Origin: Sphingomonas sp. QA11
GTDB lineage: Bacteria > Pseudomonadota > Alphaproteobacteria > Sphingomonadales > Sphingomonadaceae
NCBI RefSeq assembly: GCF_028473665.1
Contig: NZ_CP098774.1
Span: forward strand, 3,500,501-3,564,500
Reading direction: 5' to 3'
Length of the DNA: 64,000 bases
A program made the position numbers and the translations under genes. A model generated the notes under the pieces. The model saw nothing but the letters and a program-made list of their open reading frames with translations, searched no databases and had not been told where the DNA came from. Of this stretch, positions 6,262 to 28,733 are shown in pieces (the stretch's first letter is position 1; each line of letters opens with the position of its first letter).

Positions 6262-6957
6262 TCAGAACGGCTCTTTTCCCGAATGCTGGCGGCACAATTC
6301 CAGGAAGCCGGCGGCCATGAACGACGCCATGCGATCCTTGACGGCAACAAAATCGTCCGACTTGCAGATGCCGCCGGAAAGCTTGTCGATACGCCCGGTG
6401 CGCGCCAGCGTGAGCATCAGGGCGCCAGTCACGAAATGATAGCCCCAGAAGATATCCTGCTCGCTGCAATCGGGCAGCGCCTTTTTCAGCAATCCGATCA
6501 GGCGCAGCACGACCGGATCGAAATGCTCGTCCATCAGTTCGGCACCCCATTGGGGTGCGTTCGCCACCTGGGCGCCAAGCGCGGCATAATTCTTCCAGCC
6601 CTCCCCGCCCTCGATATAGAGGTCGAGATCGGTATCGAGGAAAGCGCGCAGCGCCCCCGCGACACTCGGCTTGCCCTGGGTCGCCACGTCATATTCGTCG
6701 AGCGCCTTCATGCGCCGCTCACTCGTCACCACGGCGCGGCGGGCGAAGACGGCGTCGAAAAGCTTCTTCTTGTCCTCGAAATAGTAATTGAGCAGCGTGT
6801 GGTGGACGCCGACGCGTTTCGCGACATCCTTCAGCGTCACGCCGTAAAGGCCGTGCTGCGAGAAGAGATATTCGGCCGCGTCGAGGATCTGCTCCATCGT
6901 CTCGGCACGCTGTTCCGCCTTGGTGTTGCGTCGGCGGGGTTTCACGTCTTCGGGCAA
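6262..6957 (-). CDS. TetR family transcriptional regulator
   Basis: The 231-residue protein has an N-terminal TetR helix-turn-helix (ILDAAEYLFSQHGLYGVTLK, then KRVGVHHTLLNYYFEDKKKL) after a basic leader. The C-terminal ligand domain is all-helical and resembles regulators of fatty-acid or aromatic catabolism. The start at 6957 is TTG with AAAGG upstream; a GTG four codons later is an alternative. It sits inside the receptor / esterase / acyl-CoA synthetase cluster and is the likely local repressor of that cluster, responding to a substrate or CoA ester. The effector is unknown. Confidence 0.85.
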   Translation of the reverse strand: MPEDVKPRRRNTKAEQRAETMEQILDAAEYLFSQHGLYGVTLKDVAKRVGVHHTLLNYYFEDKKKLFDAVFARRAVVTSERRMKALDEYDVATQGKPSVAGALRAFLDTDLDLYIEGGEGWKNYAALGAQVANAPQWGAELMDEHFDPVVLRLIGLLKKALPDCSEQDIFWGYHFVTGALMLTLARTGRIDKLSGGICKSDDFVAVKDRMASFMAAGFLELCRQHSGKEPF

Positions 6958-7012
6958 TGAGGGCCTTTCTGTCTTGGCGCGACCAGCGCCGAACCGGCGA
7001 CCGGACCCCGGC

Positions 7013-8596
7013 TCACGCGCTGCCGTATTCGGATCTCAGGCGTATCTTGTCGATCTTGCCGGTCGACGCCAGAGGCATGTGCTGAAGGCGCACGATCGCA
7101 TCGGGGATCCACCAAGGCGCGACCCGCCCTTTCAGGGGTGCCAGCAGCGCTTCGTCGCTAATTCCCTGTCGATCGCGCATCTCCACCAGCAGGATCGGGC
7201 GCTCGCCCCATTTATCGTCCTGCCGCCCGATTACCGCGGCCAGCGACACCTCCGGCAGCGCGCCGACCACGGCTTCGATCTCGGCCGGGTTGATCCACTC
7301 GCCGCCCGACTTGATCAGGTCCTTGGCCCGGCCGGTGATGATCAGATTGCCGTCCATGTCGATCCGCGCGAGATCGCCGGTCCCGAACCAGCCATCGGCA
7401 TCGGTCGCGCTCTGCTCCTGGCCGAAATAGCGCTCGACCACCGCCGCGCCGCGCACGCGCAGATGCCCCTCCGGCCCGCGCTGTTCAGGCAAGGCGTTTC
7501 CTTCCGCATCGACCAGCAACAGATCAACCCCGATCGCGGGACGCCCCGCCAGGGCGGCGGACCGGGCCGGATCATTGGGCGGGGAGACGGTGCCCGAGGG
7601 CGACAATTCGGTCATCCCCCAGCTCGTCTGTACCGTCACGCCGAGCCGGCGCTCGATACGCTCCATCAGCGCTGGCGCCAGCGGAGCACCGCCCATGATG
7701 ATTCGCTGGAGCGTCGGCACCTCTTCGCCGGTGGCCTCGAGGTGGTCGAGCAGCCCGAGCCAGACGGTCGGCACGCCCACCGCGATCGTCACCCCTTCAG
7801 CGACGATCAGACGCGCCAGGCTCGCGCCGTCAGTCCGCCTTCCGGGCAGCACCAGCTTCGCGCCGGCCGCGGGCACCGCGAAGGGCAGTCCCCAGGCATT
7901 GGCGTGGAACATCGGCACGACGACCAGCGCGCTGTCCTTGGCGGAGATCGCCATGACGTCCGCCTGCAGCAGCCGCAACGTGTGCAGGAAGCTCGACCGG
8001 TGTGTGTAGGTGACCCCCTTGGGCGCGCCCGTGGTGCCGGAAGTGAAGCAAAGGCCGCAGGGCGCGGTTTCGTCGAAGCCTCCCCAGGACACGGTCGGGG
8101 ACGCGTCGGCGATCAGCGGTTCGAGTTCGACGACGCGCGCGGTCCCCGCCACGCCCTGGCCGGGCCCGTCGATCACCAGTACGTACTCGATCGCCCGCAC
8201 CCGCTCGGCGATCTGGCTGGCGAGCGGCATCAGGTCGGCGCTCGCGACCAGCATCCGCGCGCCCGACTGCTCGACCATCGAGGCAAGCTGCGCGCCGGTC
8301 AGCCGCGGGTTGAGCGTATGGCAGACCGCCCCCATGCCCATGACGGCATACCAGGTCTCGACATGCGCCTGGCTGTTCCACGCCAGCGTGGCGATTCTGT
8401 CCCCCGCCCGCGCGCCAAACCCGTCGAGCACCGCCGACACGCGCCTGCTGCGCGCCTGTAACTCGCCATAGCCGATCCGGGCGATCCGCCCATCTTCGCA
8501 GGCAGTCACCACCTCGCGGCGAGGATGCCATTTGGCTGCATGTTCCAGAAACTTGTCGAGCGTCAGGTCGAAAGGCTGCATTTCACCGTCGATCAT
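7013..8596 (-). CDS. Acyl-CoA synthetase (AMP-forming, long-chain-fatty-acid--CoA ligase-like)
   Basis: The 527-residue ANL-superfamily enzyme activates a carboxylate to its CoA thioester through an acyl-adenylate. The phosphate-binding loop TSGTTGAPKG is at about 185-194. Further hallmarks are the adenylate motif SWGMTELSP, the hinge region DLIKSGGEWINPAEIE, and the C-terminal lysine motif STGKIDK. The start at 8596 overlaps the esterase stop as ATGA, so the two are translationally coupled. The acid released by the esterase is the natural candidate substrate. Chain length or ring preference cannot be read from the sequence. Confidence 0.9.
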   Translation of the reverse strand: MIDGEMQPFDLTLDKFLEHAAKWHPRREVVTACEDGRIARIGYGELQARSRRVSAVLDGFGARAGDRIATLAWNSQAHVETWYAVMGMGAVCHTLNPRLTGAQLASMVEQSGARMLVASADLMPLASQIAERVRAIEYVLVIDGPGQGVAGTARVVELEPLIADASPTVSWGGFDETAPCGLCFTSGTTGAPKGVTYTHRSSFLHTLRLLQADVMAISAKDSALVVVPMFHANAWGLPFAVPAAGAKLVLPGRRTDGASLARLIVAEGVTIAVGVPTVWLGLLDHLEATGEEVPTLQRIIMGGAPLAPALMERIERRLGVTVQTSWGMTELSPSGTVSPPNDPARSAALAGRPAIGVDLLLVDAEGNALPEQRGPEGHLRVRGAAVVERYFGQEQSATDADGWFGTGDLARIDMDGNLIITGRAKDLIKSGGEWINPAEIEAVVGALPEVSLAAVIGRQDDKWGERPILLVEMRDRQGISDEALLAPLKGRVAPWWIPDAIVRLQHMPLASTGKIDKIRLRSEYGSA

Positions 8597-10221
8597 TTGC
8601 AGTTTGCCACCTTTGCCAGCACCGGGGAGATGACGCCGGTATTCCAGTTCCACGGCTGGTCGCCTGCCGCGGACCGGCGGCAGACAGCCGCTTCGTGCAG
8701 CGCGAACATGCCCGGGAAGAGCTTCCTGCCCGGCGTCGGCACCTGCGCGAAGGCAATGTAGTTCGCGTCCTTGCCATAAGGTTGCCAGGCGGGCTGGCCC
8801 TTGGCGACCGGATCGCCGGTCGTCGCGAACGACGTCCAGTAGCTCATCATCGCGTCGGACAGGCGCCGTTCGGCCAGCGTGTCGGGCACCTTCGGCCAAT
8901 AAGGCGGCGTCTGGCCCGTCGTGCCGAAGACATAGGGCAGTTCCGATGCGTGAAACGCATGCAGGCCGTTATCGTCGGCGGCCGGATAGCCGTGATCGAA
9001 CAGATAGAGATAGCCGCGCTGGCCGATCGCTGTCTGGCCGATCGCCAGCCGGGTCGAGGTCCAGCCGTAGAGTGCATCGCGGGTATTGGCGAGCATGCTC
9101 TCGTCGATCGTGCCAGCGGGATAGAGCCTGAGATAATAGTCGGCGAGATCGCCATAACGGCCGCGAATCGTCTCCTCATAGGCAGCGGCGTTGGCCGGCG
9201 CCGGCGGCAGCAGGACACGGAGCGAGCGGATTTCACCACTGTTGAAGCCGGCGAGGACCGGCACGGGCGCCTGCTCGCCGCGATTCCAGGTGTCGATGAG
9301 CTGGCGGGTCAGCACCTTGCCATCGACGGCGCCCCAGGGGCCATAACCCCTGGCCGCGGCCGAATCCGTGAGCTTTTCCGCGTCCATCGCGCGGAACGCC
9401 GGCAGATCGGCCGCCCCCAGCGCCGTCATGATCTGAGTCCCGGCAGCTTCCGCCGAGGGCGTGCCGTGCGCCGTCTGCTTCAGCTCGGGCGTTGAGATCA
9501 TATAGGCGCTTTCGGCGATGGCCTTGTGGAACAGCCCGCGCGCGCGCGGTGAGGCCATCAAATACATCACGCTGAGGCCGCCCGCCGATTCCCCCGCGAT
9601 CGTGACGTTGCCGGCGTCGCCGCCGAACGCGCCAATGTTGCGCTTGACCCAGTCAAGCGCCGCGATCTGATCGAGCAGGCCGTAATTGCCGGAGATACCT
9701 TCCGCCGATTCAGCGCTCAGCGCCGGATGCGCGAGATAGCCGAGCACGCCGAGCCGATAGTTGATCGAGACGACGATCACCTTCTTCCCGGCCATGCGCG
9801 CGCCGTCATACGTCCGCTCATGGCTGTAGCCGCCGACCAGCGCGCCGCCGTGGATCCAGACGAAGACCGGCAGGTTCCTCGCGTCCTTCGGTGCCCAGAT
9901 ATTGAGCGTCAGGCAGTCCTCGCTCATCTTCTCGGGCGGGTTGGTGTAGATGCCGACCGCCTTCGAATGCGGCTGGACGCAGGCCGGCCCGAACTCAGTC
10001 GACTTGCGCACGCCTTGCCAGGCCGGGAGCGCGGCCGGGGCCTTCCAGCGCATCGCCCCAACCGGCGGCTGTGCATAGGGGATGCTTCTGAAGACACGAA
10101 CATCACCCTGGACGCTGCCCTGTACACTTCCTGCGGGAGCATCGACGGTCGCCGACTGGGCAAATGCCGGACCGGTCGGAAGCAGGAAGGCCGCCAGCGC
10201 GGCAACGCACAATTGTTTCAT
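8593..10221 (-). CDS. Secreted carboxylesterase, type B (COesterase family)
   Basis: The 542-residue protein starts with a Sec signal peptide (MKQLCVAALAAFLLPTGPAFA). Family hallmarks include SEDCLTLNIWAP (about 100-111), the oxyanion segment WIHGGALVGG, and the nucleophile motif GESAGG with Ser212. The start at 10221 overlaps the transporter stop as ATGA. It probably hydrolyses an ester in the periplasm or outside the cell. Being secreted while the synthetase is cytoplasmic, the pair implies import of the released product by the MFS transporter encoded just upstream. Confidence 0.9.
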   Translation of the reverse strand: MKQLCVAALAAFLLPTGPAFAQSATVDAPAGSVQGSVQGDVRVFRSIPYAQPPVGAMRWKAPAALPAWQGVRKSTEFGPACVQPHSKAVGIYTNPPEKMSEDCLTLNIWAPKDARNLPVFVWIHGGALVGGYSHERTYDGARMAGKKVIVVSINYRLGVLGYLAHPALSAESAEGISGNYGLLDQIAALDWVKRNIGAFGGDAGNVTIAGESAGGLSVMYLMASPRARGLFHKAIAESAYMISTPELKQTAHGTPSAEAAGTQIMTALGAADLPAFRAMDAEKLTDSAAARGYGPWGAVDGKVLTRQLIDTWNRGEQAPVPVLAGFNSGEIRSLRVLLPPAPANAAAYEETIRGRYGDLADYYLRLYPAGTIDESMLANTRDALYGWTSTRLAIGQTAIGQRGYLYLFDHGYPAADDNGLHAFHASELPYVFGTTGQTPPYWPKVPDTLAERRLSDAMMSYWTSFATTGDPVAKGQPAWQPYGKDANYIAFAQVPTPGRKLFPGMFALHEAAVCRRSAAGDQPWNWNTGVISPVLAKVANCK

Positions 10222-11555: not shown

Positions 11556-13871
11556 TCAGAGCCCGTAGCCGAGGCGGATGCCGATCGTACGCGGCCGCAA
11601 TGTACCGAACCGGCTGACGAGAAACGCTTCGGGATGGATGTAGGTGATCGAGTGATCGTCGAACACATTCTCGACATAGAGCTGCGCCGAGATGTCGCCG
11701 CGCTTGAGGCCGAAGGTCAGGTTCGTGTTCACATATTCGTCGGTCTTGCCAAAGGTCGACAACGGCACGGTCGGCGCGCCCGGCGTGTTCGGGAACGAGC
11801 TGTTGTACGAGCCGACATATTGCGCATTCACGGCGAAGTTCGCCTTGGTGTCGTTGCCGAGATCGAAGCCATAGGACGCGTAGAGCGCGCCCTGGAGCCG
11901 CGGTGCGGAGAGCCTGTGCCCGAGCACCGCGCCGGAGATCGCGGCCTCGGTCGCGCTCAGCTTGGTGATCTTCGAATCATTATACGCCGCGTTCAGGCCG
12001 ATGAAGACGTCCTTGACCGGGATGATGCCCATCTCGACTTCGAAGCCCTTGCTGCGTGCCCCACCGATATTGGTGGCGAACTGCACCGAGTCCGATACGC
12101 GGTTGGCCTGTGCCTGGATATTGCTCCAGTCGATCAGATAGGCCGCGACATTGATCGTCACCAGCCCGTTGAGGAAGCGCCCCTTGGCGCCGACCTCATA
12201 GCTTTTCAGATCGTCCGAGGACGCACCGTTGGGGATGATGATGTCGTTGGGATTCACCAGGCTGGGACGCCCCGCGAACGCATTCACGATCGGGGCGCGG
12301 AAACCGGTGGAGAAGGTGGCATAGGTCGTCACTGACTCGGTGGGCTTGAAGCTGGCGCTCGCCTTCCAGGATGGCTTCGATCCCGATGCCTTCACACCGG
12401 CGACCGCGGCATAGGGTGTGAACTGGTTGAAGTTCACATTCCTGAAGCCGCCCAGCGCGTAATCGAAATAGTTGAAGCCCGCCGCCGTCGCGAGATACCC
12501 GCCAGCTTCGGTGAACCCCTGGGCCGAGGTACGGCCGTAGCGCATGCCGCCGGTCAGCCAGAACTTGCTCGAGAAGCGATAGGTCAGCTCCCCGAAACCG
12601 GCGAGTTCTTCACTGATCTGATGAGTATATTGCTTCTGGTAATATTGGTCGGGCAGTCCCGTAAAGCCGCGTGACTGCAGGAACGGAAGGCTGGAGCGGT
12701 AGAAATAATCGACGTCGCGGCGGCGGTGCATGTAGAAGCCGCCGACGACGAACTGGAAAGGGCCGTCCAGCGACGAGACGAGCCGGGTCTCCTGCACGAA
12801 CACCTTGTCATAGCCGTTCGCATCCAGGCCGAACGCAATCGGCGCACCGGGAAAGGACCCGCGCGGGAAGGTGCCGCCGAGGTCAACCCAGAAGCGCTGG
12901 TCGAACTTCGAATAGGTCGACGAGCTGGTCAGCTTGGCGAAATCGAACTCATAGTCGAGCGTGCCGTTGAGCACGAGCTGCTTGCCGGTGAAGCGGTCCG
13001 GCTGGTCCGAAACGCGTTTCTCGCGCCCGAGCGCCGGGCTGGTCAGCGAGGAATCCTTGGGATCGCTGTTCTCATAGGAGCCGAGCAGCTTGATCGACAG
13101 CCGGTCGGTCGGCCGCCACAGCGCGACGAGGCGCCCGCCCCAGTCGATCAGCTTGTTCGAATTGTGGATGCCGGTGCCGACATTGTCGAGATAGCCATCC
13201 TCATGGCGATAGAAGCCGACGCCGCGGATCGCGAGCTTGTCGGTCACGACGGGGATGTTGACCATCACATTATAGCGCTGGCGCACCGAATCCGACCCGG
13301 TCAGACCAATATCGACGAGTGCGGAGGTGTCGAACTCATGAAGGTTCGGGCTCTTCGTCAGGATGCGCATCGCCCCCGACAGCGAGCCGGAGCCGAACAG
13401 CGTGCCCTGCGGCCCGCGCAGGAACTCGACGCGCTCCACGTCGAACAGATTGGGGTCGACCACCGTGGTGTTGCCGATGGTCGAGACCGGCAGCTCATCG
13501 ATATAGACCGCGACCGAACTCTGGAGATTGGCGTTGTAGCCGTTGGTGGCGATGCCGCGCGCGGTGAAATTGTTGAAATTCTGGGTCGGACGGTTGAGCA
13601 CCACACCCGGCGTCTCCCGGGCGATGCCTTCGAAGCCGACGATTCCCTTCTCGGTCAGCTGTTCCTGCGAGAAGGCGGTGATGCTGAGCGGAACGTCCTG
13701 GATGCGTTCGTTGCGGCGGGTGGCGGTGACGACGATGTCGTTCGCGTCATGAGCCTCTTCCTGCGTGGTGGCCGGGGTATCGGCTTGCGGTGCGATCGCC
13801 TGTGCCAGCGCCGGCGTTGCCGATACGACGAACGCGGCGGCGCAAGCCGACGCAAGAAGAATGGCCCTCAT
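11556..13871 (-). CDS. TonB-dependent receptor
   Basis: The 771-residue outer-membrane protein has a signal peptide (ILLASACAAAFVVSATPALA), then an acidic linker and NDIVVTATRR, the TonB-interaction/plug start typical of sphingomonad receptors. The plug domain (RIQDVPLSITAFS, GTLFGSGSLSGAMRI) and a long beta-barrel ending in aromatic-rich strands follow (terminal LGYGL). The ATG at 13871 has GGGAGAGACAGG directly upstream, which favours it over a GTG at 13892. It heads the operon with MFS transporter, esterase and acyl-CoA synthetase, so it probably imports an organic ester rather than iron. Confidence 0.92.
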   Translation of the reverse strand: MRAILLASACAAAFVVSATPALAQAIAPQADTPATTQEEAHDANDIVVTATRRNERIQDVPLSITAFSQEQLTEKGIVGFEGIARETPGVVLNRPTQNFNNFTARGIATNGYNANLQSSVAVYIDELPVSTIGNTTVVDPNLFDVERVEFLRGPQGTLFGSGSLSGAMRILTKSPNLHEFDTSALVDIGLTGSDSVRQRYNVMVNIPVVTDKLAIRGVGFYRHEDGYLDNVGTGIHNSNKLIDWGGRLVALWRPTDRLSIKLLGSYENSDPKDSSLTSPALGREKRVSDQPDRFTGKQLVLNGTLDYEFDFAKLTSSSTYSKFDQRFWVDLGGTFPRGSFPGAPIAFGLDANGYDKVFVQETRLVSSLDGPFQFVVGGFYMHRRRDVDYFYRSSLPFLQSRGFTGLPDQYYQKQYTHQISEELAGFGELTYRFSSKFWLTGGMRYGRTSAQGFTEAGGYLATAAGFNYFDYALGGFRNVNFNQFTPYAAVAGVKASGSKPSWKASASFKPTESVTTYATFSTGFRAPIVNAFAGRPSLVNPNDIIIPNGASSDDLKSYEVGAKGRFLNGLVTINVAAYLIDWSNIQAQANRVSDSVQFATNIGGARSKGFEVEMGIIPVKDVFIGLNAAYNDSKITKLSATEAAISGAVLGHRLSAPRLQGALYASYGFDLGNDTKANFAVNAQYVGSYNSSFPNTPGAPTVPLSTFGKTDEYVNTNLTFGLKRGDISAQLYVENVFDDHSITYIHPEAFLVSRFGTLRPRTIGIRLGYGL

Positions 13872-13952
13872 CCTGTCTCTCCCAATCGACACCGGTCGTT
13901 AATGCCGGCTCGTTGGCAGGAGAATGCCGCGCGCCTTGCCTGGAGTCAACAC

Positions 13953-24888: not shown

Positions 24889-24905
24889 ACTGCGAGTCGT
24901 TTGCG
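24889..24905. promoter_or_regulatory. Weak Fur-box-like site before the PepSY cluster
   Basis: ACTGCGAG-TCG-TTTGCG, 46-62 bases upstream of the first PepSY gene, keeps the TGCGAG-N3-TT core of the two stronger sites at 28715 and 61664 but not the TTATCA half. Iron control of the flavin-transfer cluster would be expected from its content. Confidence 0.35.
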
Positions 24906-24950
24906 TTATCGCGACTCACTCTCACTTCGAGCCGGGGCCGTCCGCCAGTA

Positions 24951-25586
24951 ATGACTATCCAGGCCGCGCGGCAGAAGCCACGGCGCAAGACCTTCTGGCT
25001 CAAGCAGCTTCACACCTGGCACTGGATAAGCTCAGCGCTCAGCCTTGTCGGGCTCCTGCTGTTCGCCGTCACCGGATTCACGCTGAACCACGCGGCCGAT
25101 ATCGAGGCCAAACCGACGGTCGTCGCAAAGGCCGCGGCGCTGCCGGCGCCGCTGCTGCGCGCCGTCGCCCCGGTCGAGGGCCCCGACGTCAAGAAACCCC
25201 TCCCGCCCGAGGTGGCGACTTGGGTCGAAGCACATTTTCCCGCCAGCGCGCGCGGCGATGCCGAATGGTCCGCCGACGAAATCTATCTGGCGCTGCCCCG
25301 GCCCGGCGGCGACGGCTGGGTCTCGATCAACCGGGCATCAGGCGCGGTGACGTCGGAATTCACCGATCGCGGCTGGATCTCGTATCTCAACGACCTGCAC
25401 AAGGGGCGCAATTCGGGCGCCGCGTGGAAATGGTTCATCGACATCTTCGCCTTTGCCTGCCTCGTCTTCGCGCTGACCGGGCTGGTCCTGCTCCAGCTCC
25501 ACGCGGCCAAGCGCCCGATCACCTGGCCGCTCGTCGCCCTCGGCCTCGCCATTCCGGCCGGCCTCGCCGTCTTCTTCATCCACTAA
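24951..25586 (+). CDS. PepSY-associated transmembrane protein
   Basis: The 211-residue inner-membrane protein has a basic cytoplasmic start, a first helix preceded by histidines (LKQLHTWHWISSALSLVG, LLLFAVTGFTLNHA), a periplasmic PepSY-like region (about 50-160), and two C-terminal helices (WFIDIFAFACLVFALTGLVLL and WPLVALGLAIPAGLAVFFIH). Such PepSY proteins move electrons across the membrane in iron-linked systems, often with haem ligated by membrane histidines. It is the first gene of PepSY-DUF2271-DUF4198-apbE and probably reduces the flavinylated partner. Confidence 0.88.
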   Translation: MTIQAARQKPRRKTFWLKQLHTWHWISSALSLVGLLLFAVTGFTLNHAADIEAKPTVVAKAAALPAPLLRAVAPVEGPDVKKPLPPEVATWVEAHFPASARGDAEWSADEIYLALPRPGGDGWVSINRASGAVTSEFTDRGWISYLNDLHKGRNSGAAWKWFIDIFAFACLVFALTGLVLLQLHAAKRPITWPLVALGLAIPAGLAVFFIH

Positions 25587-25605
25587 TCCATCGGGAGTTC
25601 CGTCA

Positions 25606-26124
25606 ATGCAGCTCAGCCACCGCCTGATCCTCACCGGCATTCCCGTCGCCGGGCTGGCCGCGGGCACGCCCGCCTTCGCCCAGACGATCGACGTCGCCGT
25701 CACCGTGCCGCGCCTGTCGGTCGCCGAATATCACCGCCCCTATGTGGCGATCTTCGTCGAGGGCAATGGCGCCCCGGCCAGGACGCTGTCGGTCTGGTAC
25801 GATGTGAAGAAGGCGAAGAACGAAGGCCGCAAATGGCTGAACGAGGTGCGTTCCTGGTGGCGTGCCTCCGGCCGTACCAACGCCTTCGTCGCCGACGGCA
25901 CATCGGGCGCGACGCGCGCGCCTGGCGTCCAGGCGCTGAGCTTCAATGCCGCCAAGCTCGGGCTCAAGCCCGGCGAATACACCCTGGTCGTCGAGGCCGC
26001 GCGCGAGACCGGCGGGCGCGAGGTCCTGCGCCTTCCCTTCGCCTGGCCGGCCAAGCCTGGCCAGACGGCCCGCGCCGCCGGGAAGACCGAACTCGGCGCC
26101 GTCTCCGTCACCTTCAAGCCCTGA
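25606..26124 (+). CDS. DUF2271 periplasmic protein, predicted covalent FMN carrier
   Basis: The 172-residue protein has a signal peptide cleaved near TPAFA-Q (about residue 25), then a beta-rich DUF2271 domain (VAIFVEGNGAPARTLSVW, WLNEVRSWWR). Residues 97-103 read DGTSGAT, which fits the ApbE target pattern D-x-x-[ST]-[GA]-A-[ST]; Thr103 is the predicted FMN attachment site. ApbE is encoded two genes downstream. The protein is therefore inferred to be a periplasmic flavin electron carrier taking electrons from the PepSY protein. GGGAG precedes the start. Confidence 0.88.
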   Translation: MQLSHRLILTGIPVAGLAAGTPAFAQTIDVAVTVPRLSVAEYHRPYVAIFVEGNGAPARTLSVWYDVKKAKNEGRKWLNEVRSWWRASGRTNAFVADGTSGATRAPGVQALSFNAAKLGLKPGEYTLVVEAARETGGREVLRLPFAWPAKPGQTARAAGKTELGAVSVTFKP

Positions 26125-26151
26125 TCATAATCGTTCCGGAAGGATCCGCCC

Positions 26152-26964
26152 ATGAAGACCCTCCACAAACTGCTTGCCGCCGCCGTCTGTACGGCCGCGA
26201 TCGCCGCGCCGCTGCAGGCGCATCGCCTCTGGATGCTGCCCTCGACCACGATCGTATCGGGTGACGACGACTGGATCACCTTCGACGCCGCCGCGTCGAA
26301 CGACCTGTTCTTTCCCGATCACCAGCCGCTGCGCGCCGAGCCAGCGGTGGTCCAGCCCGACAGCACGCCAGGCAAGGTAGAGCATATGAACATCGGCCAG
26401 TACCGGGCGAATTTCGACCTGCACATGACCCAGAAGGGCACCTACAAGATCGTGATCCAGAATGCCGGGATCATGGGCAGCTTCAAGGTCAACGGCGTCG
26501 AGCAGCGCCTGCCGCGAGGCACCACCGCCGACAAGCTCGCCACCGCCGTGCCGGCCGGGGCGACCGACGTGAAGCTGAGCGAAACGATCAGCCGCAACGA
26601 GGTGTTCGTGACATCGGGCGCGCCGACCGACACCGTGCTCAAGCCGACCGGCCAGGGCCTCGAACTCGTCCCAGTCACCCATCCCAACGACCTGGTCGCG
26701 GGCGAGCCAGCGACGTTCAAGCTGATCGCCGACGGCAAGCCGGCCGCGAACATTGCCGTCACCGTGATCCCGGGCGGCAGCCGCTACCGCACCTCGGTCA
26801 ATGAGATCGCGCTGAAGACCGACGCCCAGGGGCAGGTCGCGATCACCTGGCCTGGCGCCGGCATGTACTGGATGTCAGCATCGACCACCGCGCCGAGCAC
26901 CGTCATCCCGAACGGCGAGAAGCGGATGAGCTACACCACCGTGCTTGAGGTGCTGCAGCCCTGA
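26152..26964 (+). CDS. DUF4198 periplasmic protein
   Basis: The 270-residue secreted protein has a signal peptide ending near LQA-HRLWM. The mature protein opens with HRLWMLPS, the histidine-initiated start typical of DUF4198, and then has two beta-sandwich modules (about 25-130 and 150-265, the second with AGEPATFKLIADGKPAANI). DUF4198 proteins accompany metal transport and flavin-transfer systems, and the N-terminal histidine may bind a metal. It overlaps apbE by one base (TGATG). Confidence 0.87.
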   Translation: MKTLHKLLAAAVCTAAIAAPLQAHRLWMLPSTTIVSGDDDWITFDAAASNDLFFPDHQPLRAEPAVVQPDSTPGKVEHMNIGQYRANFDLHMTQKGTYKIVIQNAGIMGSFKVNGVEQRLPRGTTADKLATAVPAGATDVKLSETISRNEVFVTSGAPTDTVLKPTGQGLELVPVTHPNDLVAGEPATFKLIADGKPAANIAVTVIPGGSRYRTSVNEIALKTDAQGQVAITWPGAGMYWMSASTTAPSTVIPNGEKRMSYTTVLEVLQP

Positions 26965-27953
26965 TGGCTGGCCCGCCTCGCGTCGCGGTGCCGTTGCACG
27001 TCTCGCCTGAGTCGTTCCGGCGACGCGACGCCGGGGCGACGATCGCCCTGTTCGGCGGCGACACGATGGGGACGAGCTGGTCGGCGCGGGTCGTCTCCCC
27101 GCGACCGGCCAGCGACATACGCGCGGCGATCAAGCGCGCACTGGACGGCGTGATCGCCGAGATGAGCAACTGGGAACCGGATTCCGACCTGTCCCGGTTC
27201 AACCGCGCGCCGCCGGGCCAGTGGCAGGCGCTTCCGGCCGATCTCCTCCAGGTGCTCGATGCGGGGCTGGCCGTCGCCCGCGCGAGCGGCGGGGCCTTCG
27301 ATCCGACGGCGGGCGCGCTGGTCGACCTATGGGGTTTCGGGCCAGCGGGCCGGGGTGCCCTTCCGGCGGAAACCGAGGTGATGGCTGCACCGGTCGGCTG
27401 GCGGAAGCTGGAGATTTCCGAAACGCGCGCGCGGCGAACCGCCGACGTGCGGCTCGACCTGTCGGGTATCGCCAAGGGGTTCGGAGTCGACGCGCTGGCC
27501 CGCGCGCTGCACGGCCTCGGCGCCGGCGATTTCCTCGCTGAGATTGGCGGCGAACTGGTCGGGGCAGGCGTAAAGCCGGACGGCGAACCATGGTGGGTCG
27601 AGCTTGAAGCACCGCCCGGTGCAAGAATCGCCCCCTTGCGCGTGGCATTGCACGATCTCGCCGTTGCGACCTCGGGCGATTATCGGCGCTTCTTCGAGAC
27701 GGGTGGGCGACGCTACGCCCATAGCATCGACCCGCGGACCCGCCGCCCCGTGGCCAACGGCATCGCCGCGGTCACCGTGCTGAATCCTCGCTGCATGCTG
27801 GCCGATGCGTGGGCGACGGCATTGACGGTGCTCGGGCCGGAAGAGGGCCTAGCTTTGGCCATCCGCGAGGGTCTCGCCGTTCGCTTCGTCATACGGGACG
27901 CCTCCGGATATCGCGAAATCCTGTCGCCTGCGCTGGACGAGATGCTCGGCTAA
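26964..27953 (+). CDS. apbE: FAD:protein FMN transferase (ApbE)
   Basis: The 329-residue enzyme transfers FMN from FAD to a Ser or Thr of extracytoplasmic proteins, using Mg2+. Recognisable segments are MGTSWSARVV, MSNWEPDSDLSRFNR, GGAFDPTAGALVDLWGFG, the DLSGIAKGFGVDA motif, GGELVGAG, and the HSIDPRTRRPVANG / LADAWATAL region near the C-terminus. No clear signal peptide or lipobox is visible, so export is not obvious; the annotated start is fixed by coupling to the DUF4198 gene. The likely target is the adjacent DUF2271 protein. Confidence 0.92.
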   Translation: MAGPPRVAVPLHVSPESFRRRDAGATIALFGGDTMGTSWSARVVSPRPASDIRAAIKRALDGVIAEMSNWEPDSDLSRFNRAPPGQWQALPADLLQVLDAGLAVARASGGAFDPTAGALVDLWGFGPAGRGALPAETEVMAAPVGWRKLEISETRARRTADVRLDLSGIAKGFGVDALARALHGLGAGDFLAEIGGELVGAGVKPDGEPWWVELEAPPGARIAPLRVALHDLAVATSGDYRRFFETGGRRYAHSIDPRTRRPVANGIAAVTVLNPRCMLADAWATALTVLGPEEGLALAIREGLAVRFVIRDASGYREILSPALDEMLG

Positions 27954-27963
27954 GGCCCCGCCT

Positions 27964-28647
27964 TCAGGCGTCGGCCCAGCGGCGCAGCAGATTGTGATAG
28001 ACCCCCGTCAACTGTACCACCGCGGCATCGTCCTGCCCGCGATCGCCCGCGACCGCCTGCACCGCGGAATCTAGGTCGAACAGGATATTGCGCGCGCTCT
28101 CGTCGCGCACCATCGACTGAATCCAGAAGAAGGACGCCACGCGGGTGCCCCGGGTGACCGGCGTCACGTGGTGCCGGCTCGAGGCGGGATAGAGCACCAT
28201 ATGGCCGGCGGGCAGCTTGACCATCTGCTCGCCGAACTGCCCCTCGATCACCAGCTCTCCACCGTCATAGCTCTCCGGATCGGCGAGGAAGAGCGTTGCC
28301 GAAAGATCGCTGCGGATACGGAAATCGCTGCCGCGCCTGATACGGATCGCATTGTCGACATGGGTATCGAAGGCCTGTCCCCCGGCGTAGCGATTGAACA
28401 GGGGCGGGAAGACCTTGAGCGGCAGGGCAGCCGCGACGAACAGGGGCGACGCGGCGAGCGCATCGAGTACCATCGCCCCGGCGCGGCGCGCTGCGTCCGA
28501 ATCCTCGGGCAATTGCTCGTTGCGCTTGGCAAGGGCCGATTGATGCCCCGACGTCACATTGCCATCGACCCATAAGGCAGCGTCGATGATCACGCGCATT
28601 CCGGCAAGCTGATCAGGCGAGAGCAGGTCGGGAATAGCGATCAGCAT
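27964..28647 (-). CDS. piuC: Fe(II)/2-oxoglutarate PKHD-type hydroxylase (PiuC/YbiX)
   Basis: The 227-residue enzyme opens with [14 protein letters not shown]. The iron ligands are in [10 protein letters not shown] (H-x-D) and the downstream histidine of SRHHVTPV; the 2-oxoglutarate arginine is in [13 protein letters not shown]. PiuC/YbiX proteins are iron-regulated and usually lie near TonB receptor or PepSY genes, as here. The biological substrate is not established. The gene converges on apbE with only 10 bases between and has a Fur-like box upstream. Confidence 0.92.
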
Positions 28648-28714
28648 CGCGCGGGGCCGCGTCGGATGGGTGTGGTTGCGCGCAAGCTGGGCCCTTTCGG
28701 TCAAGAGACCCGCT

Positions 28715-28733
28715 ATTGCGAGCGGTTATCAAT
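28715..28733. promoter_or_regulatory. Candidate Fur box upstream of piuC
   Basis: ATTGCGAGCGGTTATCAAT has matching ATTG/CAAT ends and shares ATTGCGAG-N3-TTATCA with the site upstream of the second PepSY gene at 61664. It lies 68-86 bases before the piuC start. Confidence 0.55.

Follow-up and report, generated by a model that had tools for sequence, protein, structure and literature searches.

PepSY-like flavinylation clusters, in which the membrane protein is often encoded with DUF2271 (2833 clusters) or DUF4198 (1500 clusters) proteins, have been described, and it was proposed that they serve to reduce and assimilate iron (Meheust et al. 2021, PMC8238504). In that work, the cognate ApbE attached flavin to a DUF2271 protein of A. 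ursilacus in E. coli, and a Thr-to-Ala change abolished the modification. In Caulobacter crescentus, the orthologous locus CC_3059-3063 (CCNA_03155-03159) also encodes a PepSY-family membrane protein, DUF2271, DUF4198, and ApbE; these genes are controlled by Fur, rising when iron is limiting and when fur is mutated (PMC3751524), and insertions in them lower fitness in EDTA (PMC11870441). Here, we analyze an operon of the same four families, in the order PepSY, DUF2271, DUF4198, and ApbE, at positions 24951 to 27953 (plus strand) of a 64,000-nucleotide (nt) stretch of Sphingomonas sp. QA11 (NZ_CP098774.1, positions 3,500,501 to 3,564,500; the window, numbered from its start). The flavin transferase of this operon, ApbE, has no recognizable leader, and we propose with moderate confidence that this is a Fur-controlled reductive iron acquisition operon in which the DUF2271 precursor is flavinylated in the cytoplasm before or during Sec export.

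The window operon agrees with the described PepSY-like clusters in its four families, in its acceptor motif, and in the ferric-reduction and iron-uptake role proposed for them. Those clusters are defined by a PepSY-like protein (PF03929 or PF16357), for which the window has a PF16357 match of 258.2 bits (cutoff, 27), and by ApbE and/or DUF2271 with a signal peptide on at least one of them (PMC8238504); in the window this signal peptide is on DUF2271, not on ApbE, as judged by a rule of our own rather than by SignalP. The C. crescentus locus differs in having a fifth gene, for a sulfite-reductase-type flavoprotein, that is absent beside the window cluster, where the neighbor is a piuC-like gene. 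The central idea of a flavinylated DUF2271 carrier is already published (PMC8238504) and is not new here. That paper treats flavinylation as extracytosolic, and, its supplements aside, we found in it neither a missing ApbE leader nor a leaderless ApbE as the sole ApbE of a genome. In the open-licence literature, taken without supplements, we found no published case of a leaderless ApbE acting on an exported substrate, the nearest being the Klebsiella and eukaryotic cytosolic cases of a review whose text does not mention DUF2271 (PMC12052999). We likewise found no discussion there of the site of flavin attachment or of the topology of leaderless ApbE; the window cluster is a correctly read member of a described system.

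To compare relatives, we sought DUF2271 in evenly drawn samples of larger groups of genomes, with 147 from the order, 289 from the class, and 398 from the phylum. Matches above the family cutoff were kept with about 6 kb of flank on each side (less at contig ends), those below it were dropped, and duplicates were removed, which gave 88 stretches, or 89 with the window (the first set): 43 four-gene clusters including the window, 16 trios whose stretch has no ApbE, 16 loci of a distant DUF2271 class (L100 to L111, L113, L132, L142, and L143), 8 ApbE-DUF2271 fusions, and 6 others. A second, named set holds the best 80 of at least 581 confirmed DUF2271 loci (71 four-gene clusters, 7 trios, and 2 others). 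Counts for four-gene clusters are pooled over both sets (n = 114, or 43 + 71), which may share loci. One contig, that of L256, is titled Bacillus subtilis and holds a cluster of Gram-negative type, so the assembly is probably mislabelled or contaminated; ApbE is split over two open frames in L188, and PepSY and DUF4198 are each spread over several in L198, reflecting sequencing errors or broken genes. Leaders were scored with our own hydrophobicity rule, which is not a trained predictor and which looks for an uncharged hydrophobic 11-mer following a start codon and a basic residue within as many as 70 residues of open frame ahead of the ApbE domain (cutoff, 1.8; looser cutoff, 1.5); for DUF2271 the rule reached some residues further into the domain than for ApbE.

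Periplasmic lipoprotein ApbEs (reviewed in PMC12052999) belong to the same family as the window ApbE and share its conserved ApbE positions. In contrast to them, the window ApbE has no recognizable signal peptide or lipobox, its open frame beginning just 31 amino acids before the domain (PF02424, 272.5 bits) and containing no signal-like segment, and it falls in a separate clade. Its D281 and T285, which we take to be metal/FAD-site residues (FAD, flavin adenine dinucleotide), are kept in 137/137 and 135/137 aligned rows. A signal-like segment reached 1.8 in only 2 of the 60 stand-alone ApbEs of DUF2271 clusters in the first set (3/60 at 1.5) and in none of the 71 in the named set (3/71 at 1.5; this count includes the split ApbE of L188). 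The two exceptions at 1.8 are L161, with a clear lipoprotein-like leader, and L146, with a short N-terminal VLIP segment. Two Caulobacter loci of the named set, L232 and L250, are among those with a leaderless ApbE. The 14 ApbEs of the distant class likewise lack a leader, and among the ApbE-DUF2271 fusions 7/8 reach 1.5 and 6/8 reach 1.8, the eighth (L141) having a weak ApbE match. For a control, we used 70 ApbE stretches from a search of 150 genomes of the phylum, 30 of them the best matches and 40 picked by hand further down the list with their N termini unseen. Leader-like segments were common there, with 58/68 ApbEs lacking DUF2271 in the stretch reaching 1.8 and 59/68 reaching 1.5, although these stretches are short and a DUF2271 gene more than about 1.5 to 2 kb away would escape notice. 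The two control ApbEs that adjoin DUF2271 are both without a leader.

The cluster ApbE is the sole ApbE match in the window genome. Among 20 genomes with four-gene clusters (20 of the 43, picked by hand), we found no ApbE besides the leaderless one in 17, and in these it would have to act on DUF2271; the other three hold a second ApbE, two of these with a leader-like segment. The trio genomes of the first set, which have no local ApbE, all carry a leader-bearing ApbE elsewhere (16/16; weakest score, 1.84), and 10 of these genomes have no other ApbE match. Thus, two kinds of transferase appear to act on one substrate family, since the trio genomes would use a leader-bearing ApbE encoded elsewhere and the cluster genomes a leaderless one.

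We also placed these proteins in an ApbE tree of 103 rows (46 cluster, 14 distant-class, 8 fusion, and 35 control ApbEs), built by a quick method without bootstrap. In this tree, 45 of the 46 cluster ApbEs fall in one clade (Shimodaira-Hasegawa-like approximate likelihood ratio test support, 98), with L144 outside it on a long branch. Leader-bearing L161 branches first within the cluster clade, with support of just 80, and the distant-class ApbEs (14; support, 96) and the fusions (8; support, 99) form two further groups. The leaderless pattern is widespread, though it goes back to few events. Cluster ApbEs generally, and the window ApbE at 26964 to 27050, have a conserved R-[VI]-x-[IV]-P peptide near the N terminus, some 20 residues ahead of the ApbE domain, with R6 kept in 96/137 rows and P10 in 103/137. 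For the apbE genes of L209, L205, and L234, no ATG, GTG, or TTG codon fits well as a start, and from the translations a CTG codon overlapping the DUF4198 stop seems likely.

The leader-bearing ApbEs of all 16 trio genomes suggest that modification of DUF2271 outside the cytoplasm is probably possible, and this favors the main rival to our proposal. In that account, the electron path is the same and the leaderless ApbE is exported by an unrecognized route, either piggy-back on an exported partner or with the R-[VI]-x-[IV]-P peptide serving as an unusual signal, and modifies DUF2271 in the periplasm. The conservation of the peptide is in keeping with such a role. However, the peptide is short, charged residues follow soon after it in many sphingomonads, and just 3 of the 71 named ApbEs reach even the looser cutoff. 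We know of no fitting export route, and we regard this account as doubtful.

The layout of the genes bears on another way in which ApbE might leave the cytoplasm. The gaps between genes are 19 nt (PepSY/DUF2271) and 27 nt (DUF2271/DUF4198), and the DUF4198 stop and apbE start overlap (TGATG), with the apbE frame open for 5 codons further upstream. A ribosomal frameshift at this overlap could join DUF4198 and ApbE, so that ApbE would be exported behind the DUF4198 signal peptide. We saw no slippery heptamer in the window overlap by eye, and in eight loci (L155, L159, L165, L190, L232, L236, L245, and L250) the apbE frame opens only after the DUF4198 stop. This layout is therefore not general, and we reject a frameshift fusion as a general explanation; for the window as well, it is hardly credible.

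The predicted acceptor of the window DUF2271 is Thr103 (codon 25912 to 25914). An earlier reading of the window from its letters alone (the sequence-only reading) had recognized the four families, with ApbE in the same unit as DUF2271, and had noted D97-G-T-S-G-A-T103 in DUF2271 as a match to the ApbE acceptor pattern; Pfam matches and coordinates bear out the former, and we read the motif at the same residues, with SGAT at residues 100 to 103 fitting the published [S/T]GA[S/T]. In an alignment of 169 DUF2271 rows, of which 8 from other classes were left out of the counts, the acceptor Thr/Ser is kept in 114/114 four-gene clusters, 23/23 loci without ApbE in the stretch, 16/16 loci of the distant class, and 8/8 ApbE fusions. 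Because this residue is invariant, the motif is, by this alignment, more than a chance match. The strict form D..[ST]GA[ST], which the window has, occurs in just 49 of the 114 four-gene clusters; GPT, SAT, and N-initial variants are common, and Pro replaces Ala in 35/114. The fusions (L017, L097, L099, L124, L126, L128, L129, and L141) have a noncanonical acceptor site such as DGVTRPT. In a structure model of the window DUF2271 (mean predicted local distance difference test score [pLDDT], 86; lower in the motif-bearing block), the protein is predicted to be of beta type, with the acceptor in a loop that follows two helices. No solved structure matched this model at an E value of ≤0.001, the search returning just weak C2- or Ig-like sandwiches.

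A leaderless ApbE might also act on a cytosolic protein, with DUF2271 left unflavinylated in this organism, since a cytosolic Klebsiella ApbE flavinylates a soluble fumarate reductase (PMC12052999). This is very improbable given the operon linkage and the invariant acceptor Thr/Ser, and given that a homologous DUF2271 receives its flavin from the cognate ApbE in E. coli (PMC8238504). Family membership, the invariant acceptor, and this published experiment support the flavinylated carrier put forward in the sequence-only reading. That reading had left the export of ApbE aside; since the transferase looks leaderless, periplasmic flavin loading cannot simply be taken for granted.

DUF2271, by our rule, is exported. 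The window protein has a signal-peptide-like segment, LILTGIPVAGL, that scores 2.12. Among the 43 four-gene clusters of the first set, 42 DUF2271 proteins reach 1.5 and 34 reach 1.8; the values are 78 and 65 for all 89 rows including fusions, and 70/80 and 52/80 for the named set. These leaders (25606 to 25683 in the window) often have T-G within the hydrophobic stretch, an observation made by eye and uncounted. We found the twin-arginine translocation (Tat) consensus in none of 157 DUF2271 leaders; RR occurs in 15, every one of which starts MRRL. Tat export of flavinylated DUF2271 was rejected on this basis.

With a sole ApbE that is leaderless and a substrate that bears a leader, loading in the cytosol followed by Sec export is the simplest account, and cytoplasmic flavinylation is the most likely because ApbE has no export signal. 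In the mechanism that we propose, hemes of the PepSY protein would pass electrons across the inner membrane to flavin mononucleotide (FMN) on Thr103 of periplasmic DUF2271, and the FMN-bearing protein would reduce ferric iron, free or chelated. DUF4198 would be a periplasmic metal-binding partner that takes or hands on metal. In contrast to the lipoprotein ApbEs of the periplasm, ApbE would act with cytoplasmic FAD on the DUF2271 precursor, either ahead of Sec export or in its course. The path from PepSY heme through FMN to periplasmic ferric iron has been proposed before and agrees with the Fur-like sites and the piuC neighbor described below. Of this account, the gene order, the acceptor motif, the Fur-like sites, the missing ApbE leader, and the N-terminal His and fold of DUF4198 come from sequence or prediction, and heme, FMN, electron flow, the iron acceptor, and the place of flavinylation are inferred. 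The A. ursilacus coexpression used leader-truncated proteins in E. coli (PMC8238504), and therefore loading of a DUF2271 in the cytoplasm is possible.

Several points weigh against cytoplasmic loading or the iron role. The authors of the A. ursilacus experiment termed its apbE (protein WP_053936888.1) "signal peptide-truncated" (PMC8238504), so that this cognate ApbE is taken to be leader-bearing. Our leader rule, as an untrained one, overlooks some leaders, since DUF4198 reaches 1.8 in just 55/68 proteins of the first set and 59/79 of the named set. Neither of these two points bears directly on the window ApbE. A clear leader is present on the cluster ApbE of L161, and the DUF2271 leader looks Sec-type rather than Tat. 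Sec passes unfolded chains, and we know of no test of ApbE on an unfolded substrate. Because most cluster ApbEs form one clade, the leaderless ApbEs are not independent events. The solved relatives of DUF4198 bind Ni, Zn, Cu, or Co, not iron, and support for our reading of this DUF2271 protein and of the ApbE clade comes from sequence and prediction.

The PepSY protein is the putative entry point for electrons. Its histidines are well conserved over 143 rows (H24 in 141, H47 in 134, H150 in 143, H184 in 121, H211 in 132, and H21 in 105), and it is predicted to bind heme. We found no gene for a cytosolic electron donor or reductase beside the window cluster. Elsewhere in the window genome, there are three flavodoxin-domain matches, none of them an evident substitute; the largest looks by inspection like a P450-reductase fusion. 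In the distant-class locus L105, a single protein encoded at 6419 to 8623, between DUF2271 and ApbE, joins PepSY_TM, flavodoxin, and NAD-binding domains. This fusion, from the only locus of its class scanned with success, points to a cytosolic donor; a family scan of an open frame in L102, of the same class, matched nothing. Flavodoxin and NAD-binding domains are also found in the scanned representative of a neighbor family that occurs in at least 12 of the 114 four-gene stretches, a lower bound because genes were picked simply.

The sequence-only reading had called the cluster iron-linked, and this holds, as a PiuC/YbiX-type dioxygenase gene adjoins the operon and Fur-like sites precede both units (Table 1). 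De novo motif finding in the regions preceding the PepSY gene yielded the palindrome ATTGCGAATCGTTCGCGAT in the window and 34 named loci; the loci were picked by title as sphingomonads, one of them (L185) being titled just "bacterium." Its log-likelihood was 443, compared with 32 to 36 for three shuffled sets, each sequence contributing a single site by design. When the matrix was built without the window, the site preceding the PepSY gene scored highest among 127,964 window positions on both strands (24.8 bits), and the site upstream of the piuC-like gene is the next best place (16.7 bits); the next different place scores 13.2. A weaker copy of the palindrome, at 24908 to 24926 (13.2 bits), directly adjoins the first site. 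The pattern TGMGARTCGTTYKCG, written to fit the first site, matches exactly nowhere else in the genome. We call this site Fur-like on the basis of its resemblance and the Caulobacter data. The piuC-like gene probably starts at about 28647 rather than 28704, since the family model starts at residue 20. Such a gene is present in 62 of the 114 four-gene stretches and lies within 150 nt of ApbE in 22, on the opposite strand in 21 of these. A neighbor family with a TonB receptor as its scanned representative occurs in 36/114. In the window, a TonB-dependent receptor gene (PF00593, PF07715) is found at 11556 to 13892 on the minus strand, about 11 kb from the operon.

Table 1. Features of the four-gene operon and its surroundings (window coordinates)
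Feature	Position	Strand	Evidence and predicted role
PepSY_TM_like_2 inner-membrane protein, 211 aa	24951..25586	+	Pfam E 8e-77; predicted transmembrane heme protein and electron entry (heme inferred)
DUF2271, 172 aa, secreted	25606..26124	+	Pfam E 1.3e-41; predicted FMN carrier
DUF4198, 270 aa, secreted	26152..26964	+	Pfam E 2.4e-54; predicted periplasmic metal-binding protein
ApbE flavin transferase, 329 aa	26964..27953	+	Pfam E 5.2e-81; no recognizable signal peptide
PiuC/YbiX/CciO-type Fe(II)/2-oxoglutarate dioxygenase	27964..28704	-	NCBIfam PRK05467 E 2.5e-117; PKHD_C; convergent to the operon
Fur-like palindrome ACTGCGAGTCGTTTGCGTT	24889..24907	+	44-62 nt 5' of the PepSY start codon
Second Fur-like palindrome ATTGCGAGCGGTTATCAAT	28715..28733		Strand not assigned; upstream of the piuC-like gene

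The sequence-only reading had also left the role of DUF4198 open. This partner is not wholly without a candidate role, since its predicted fold matches two solved metal-binding proteins. The window DUF4198 has a signal-peptide-like score of 2.46, and its model has a mean pLDDT of 96.4. In a fold search, this model matched Zcp (9mhl; Z score, 20.4) and nickel-bound IsDUF4198 (9GCB; Z score, 15.0; root mean square deviation, 4.8; 205 aligned residues), the next row scoring 9.4. A profile search of solved structures with DUF4198 listed Zcp, under another molecule name, at an E value of ≤0.1 and did not list 9GCB. IsDUF4198 and Zcp (PDB 9mhi to 9mho) share 15 to 18% identity with the window protein. 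With cleavage placed by eye (..LQA-HRLW..), the mature protein would begin with a histidine, precursor residue 24. This His1 is kept in 65/65 aligned rows of the first set, plus 5 partial rows on inspection, and in 75/78 rows of the named set, one partial row not being judged; it is replaced in L195, L206, and L233, though the residues that follow are conserved. His154 is kept in 62/65 rows, and His34 in 36/41 four-gene clusters, 7/16 trios, 2/3 DUF2271-DUF4198 loci, and 0/5 fusions. His1, His34, and His154 are candidate metal ligands of the window DUF4198. The N-terminal histidine is common to IsDUF4198, whose second ligand, His18, has no positional match in the window protein, which lacks histidine at mature residues 2 to 33 (a comparison of sequence position only). 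The title of a Zcp mutant entry names H29, H31, and H142.

These similarities also raise the question of which metal is handled. IsDUF4198 binds Ni with a dissociation constant of 18 nM (PMC12537917), and the entry titles of Zcp, the closest fold, show that it was solved with Zn, Cu, or Co, as might be expected if one of these four metals, or else some general redox task in the periplasm, were the business of the operon, with DUF4198 as a metal carrier. However, the Fur-like sites, the piuC neighbor, and the TonB-receptor neighbor family argue for iron, as does the induction of the Caulobacter orthologues by iron starvation (PMC3751524), and we judge this alternative improbable.

Extracytosolic covalent flavinylation is usually explained by a periplasmic ApbE with FAD supplied there. 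We tentatively suggest that the whole clade of cluster ApbEs, from alpha-, beta-, and gammaproteobacteria, instead flavinylates an exported protein in the cytoplasm, that the FMN-bearing chain crosses the Sec translocon, and that the product serves as a covalent-flavin ferric reductase under iron limitation. If loading does precede export, this small Sec-type protein would provide a test of whether SecYEG lets a chain with a bound cofactor through, and these bacteria might make a periplasmic flavoprotein with no need to export flavin for it. The DUF4198 partner, by its predicted fold, would gain a concrete metal-binding role in a widespread iron-linked operon.

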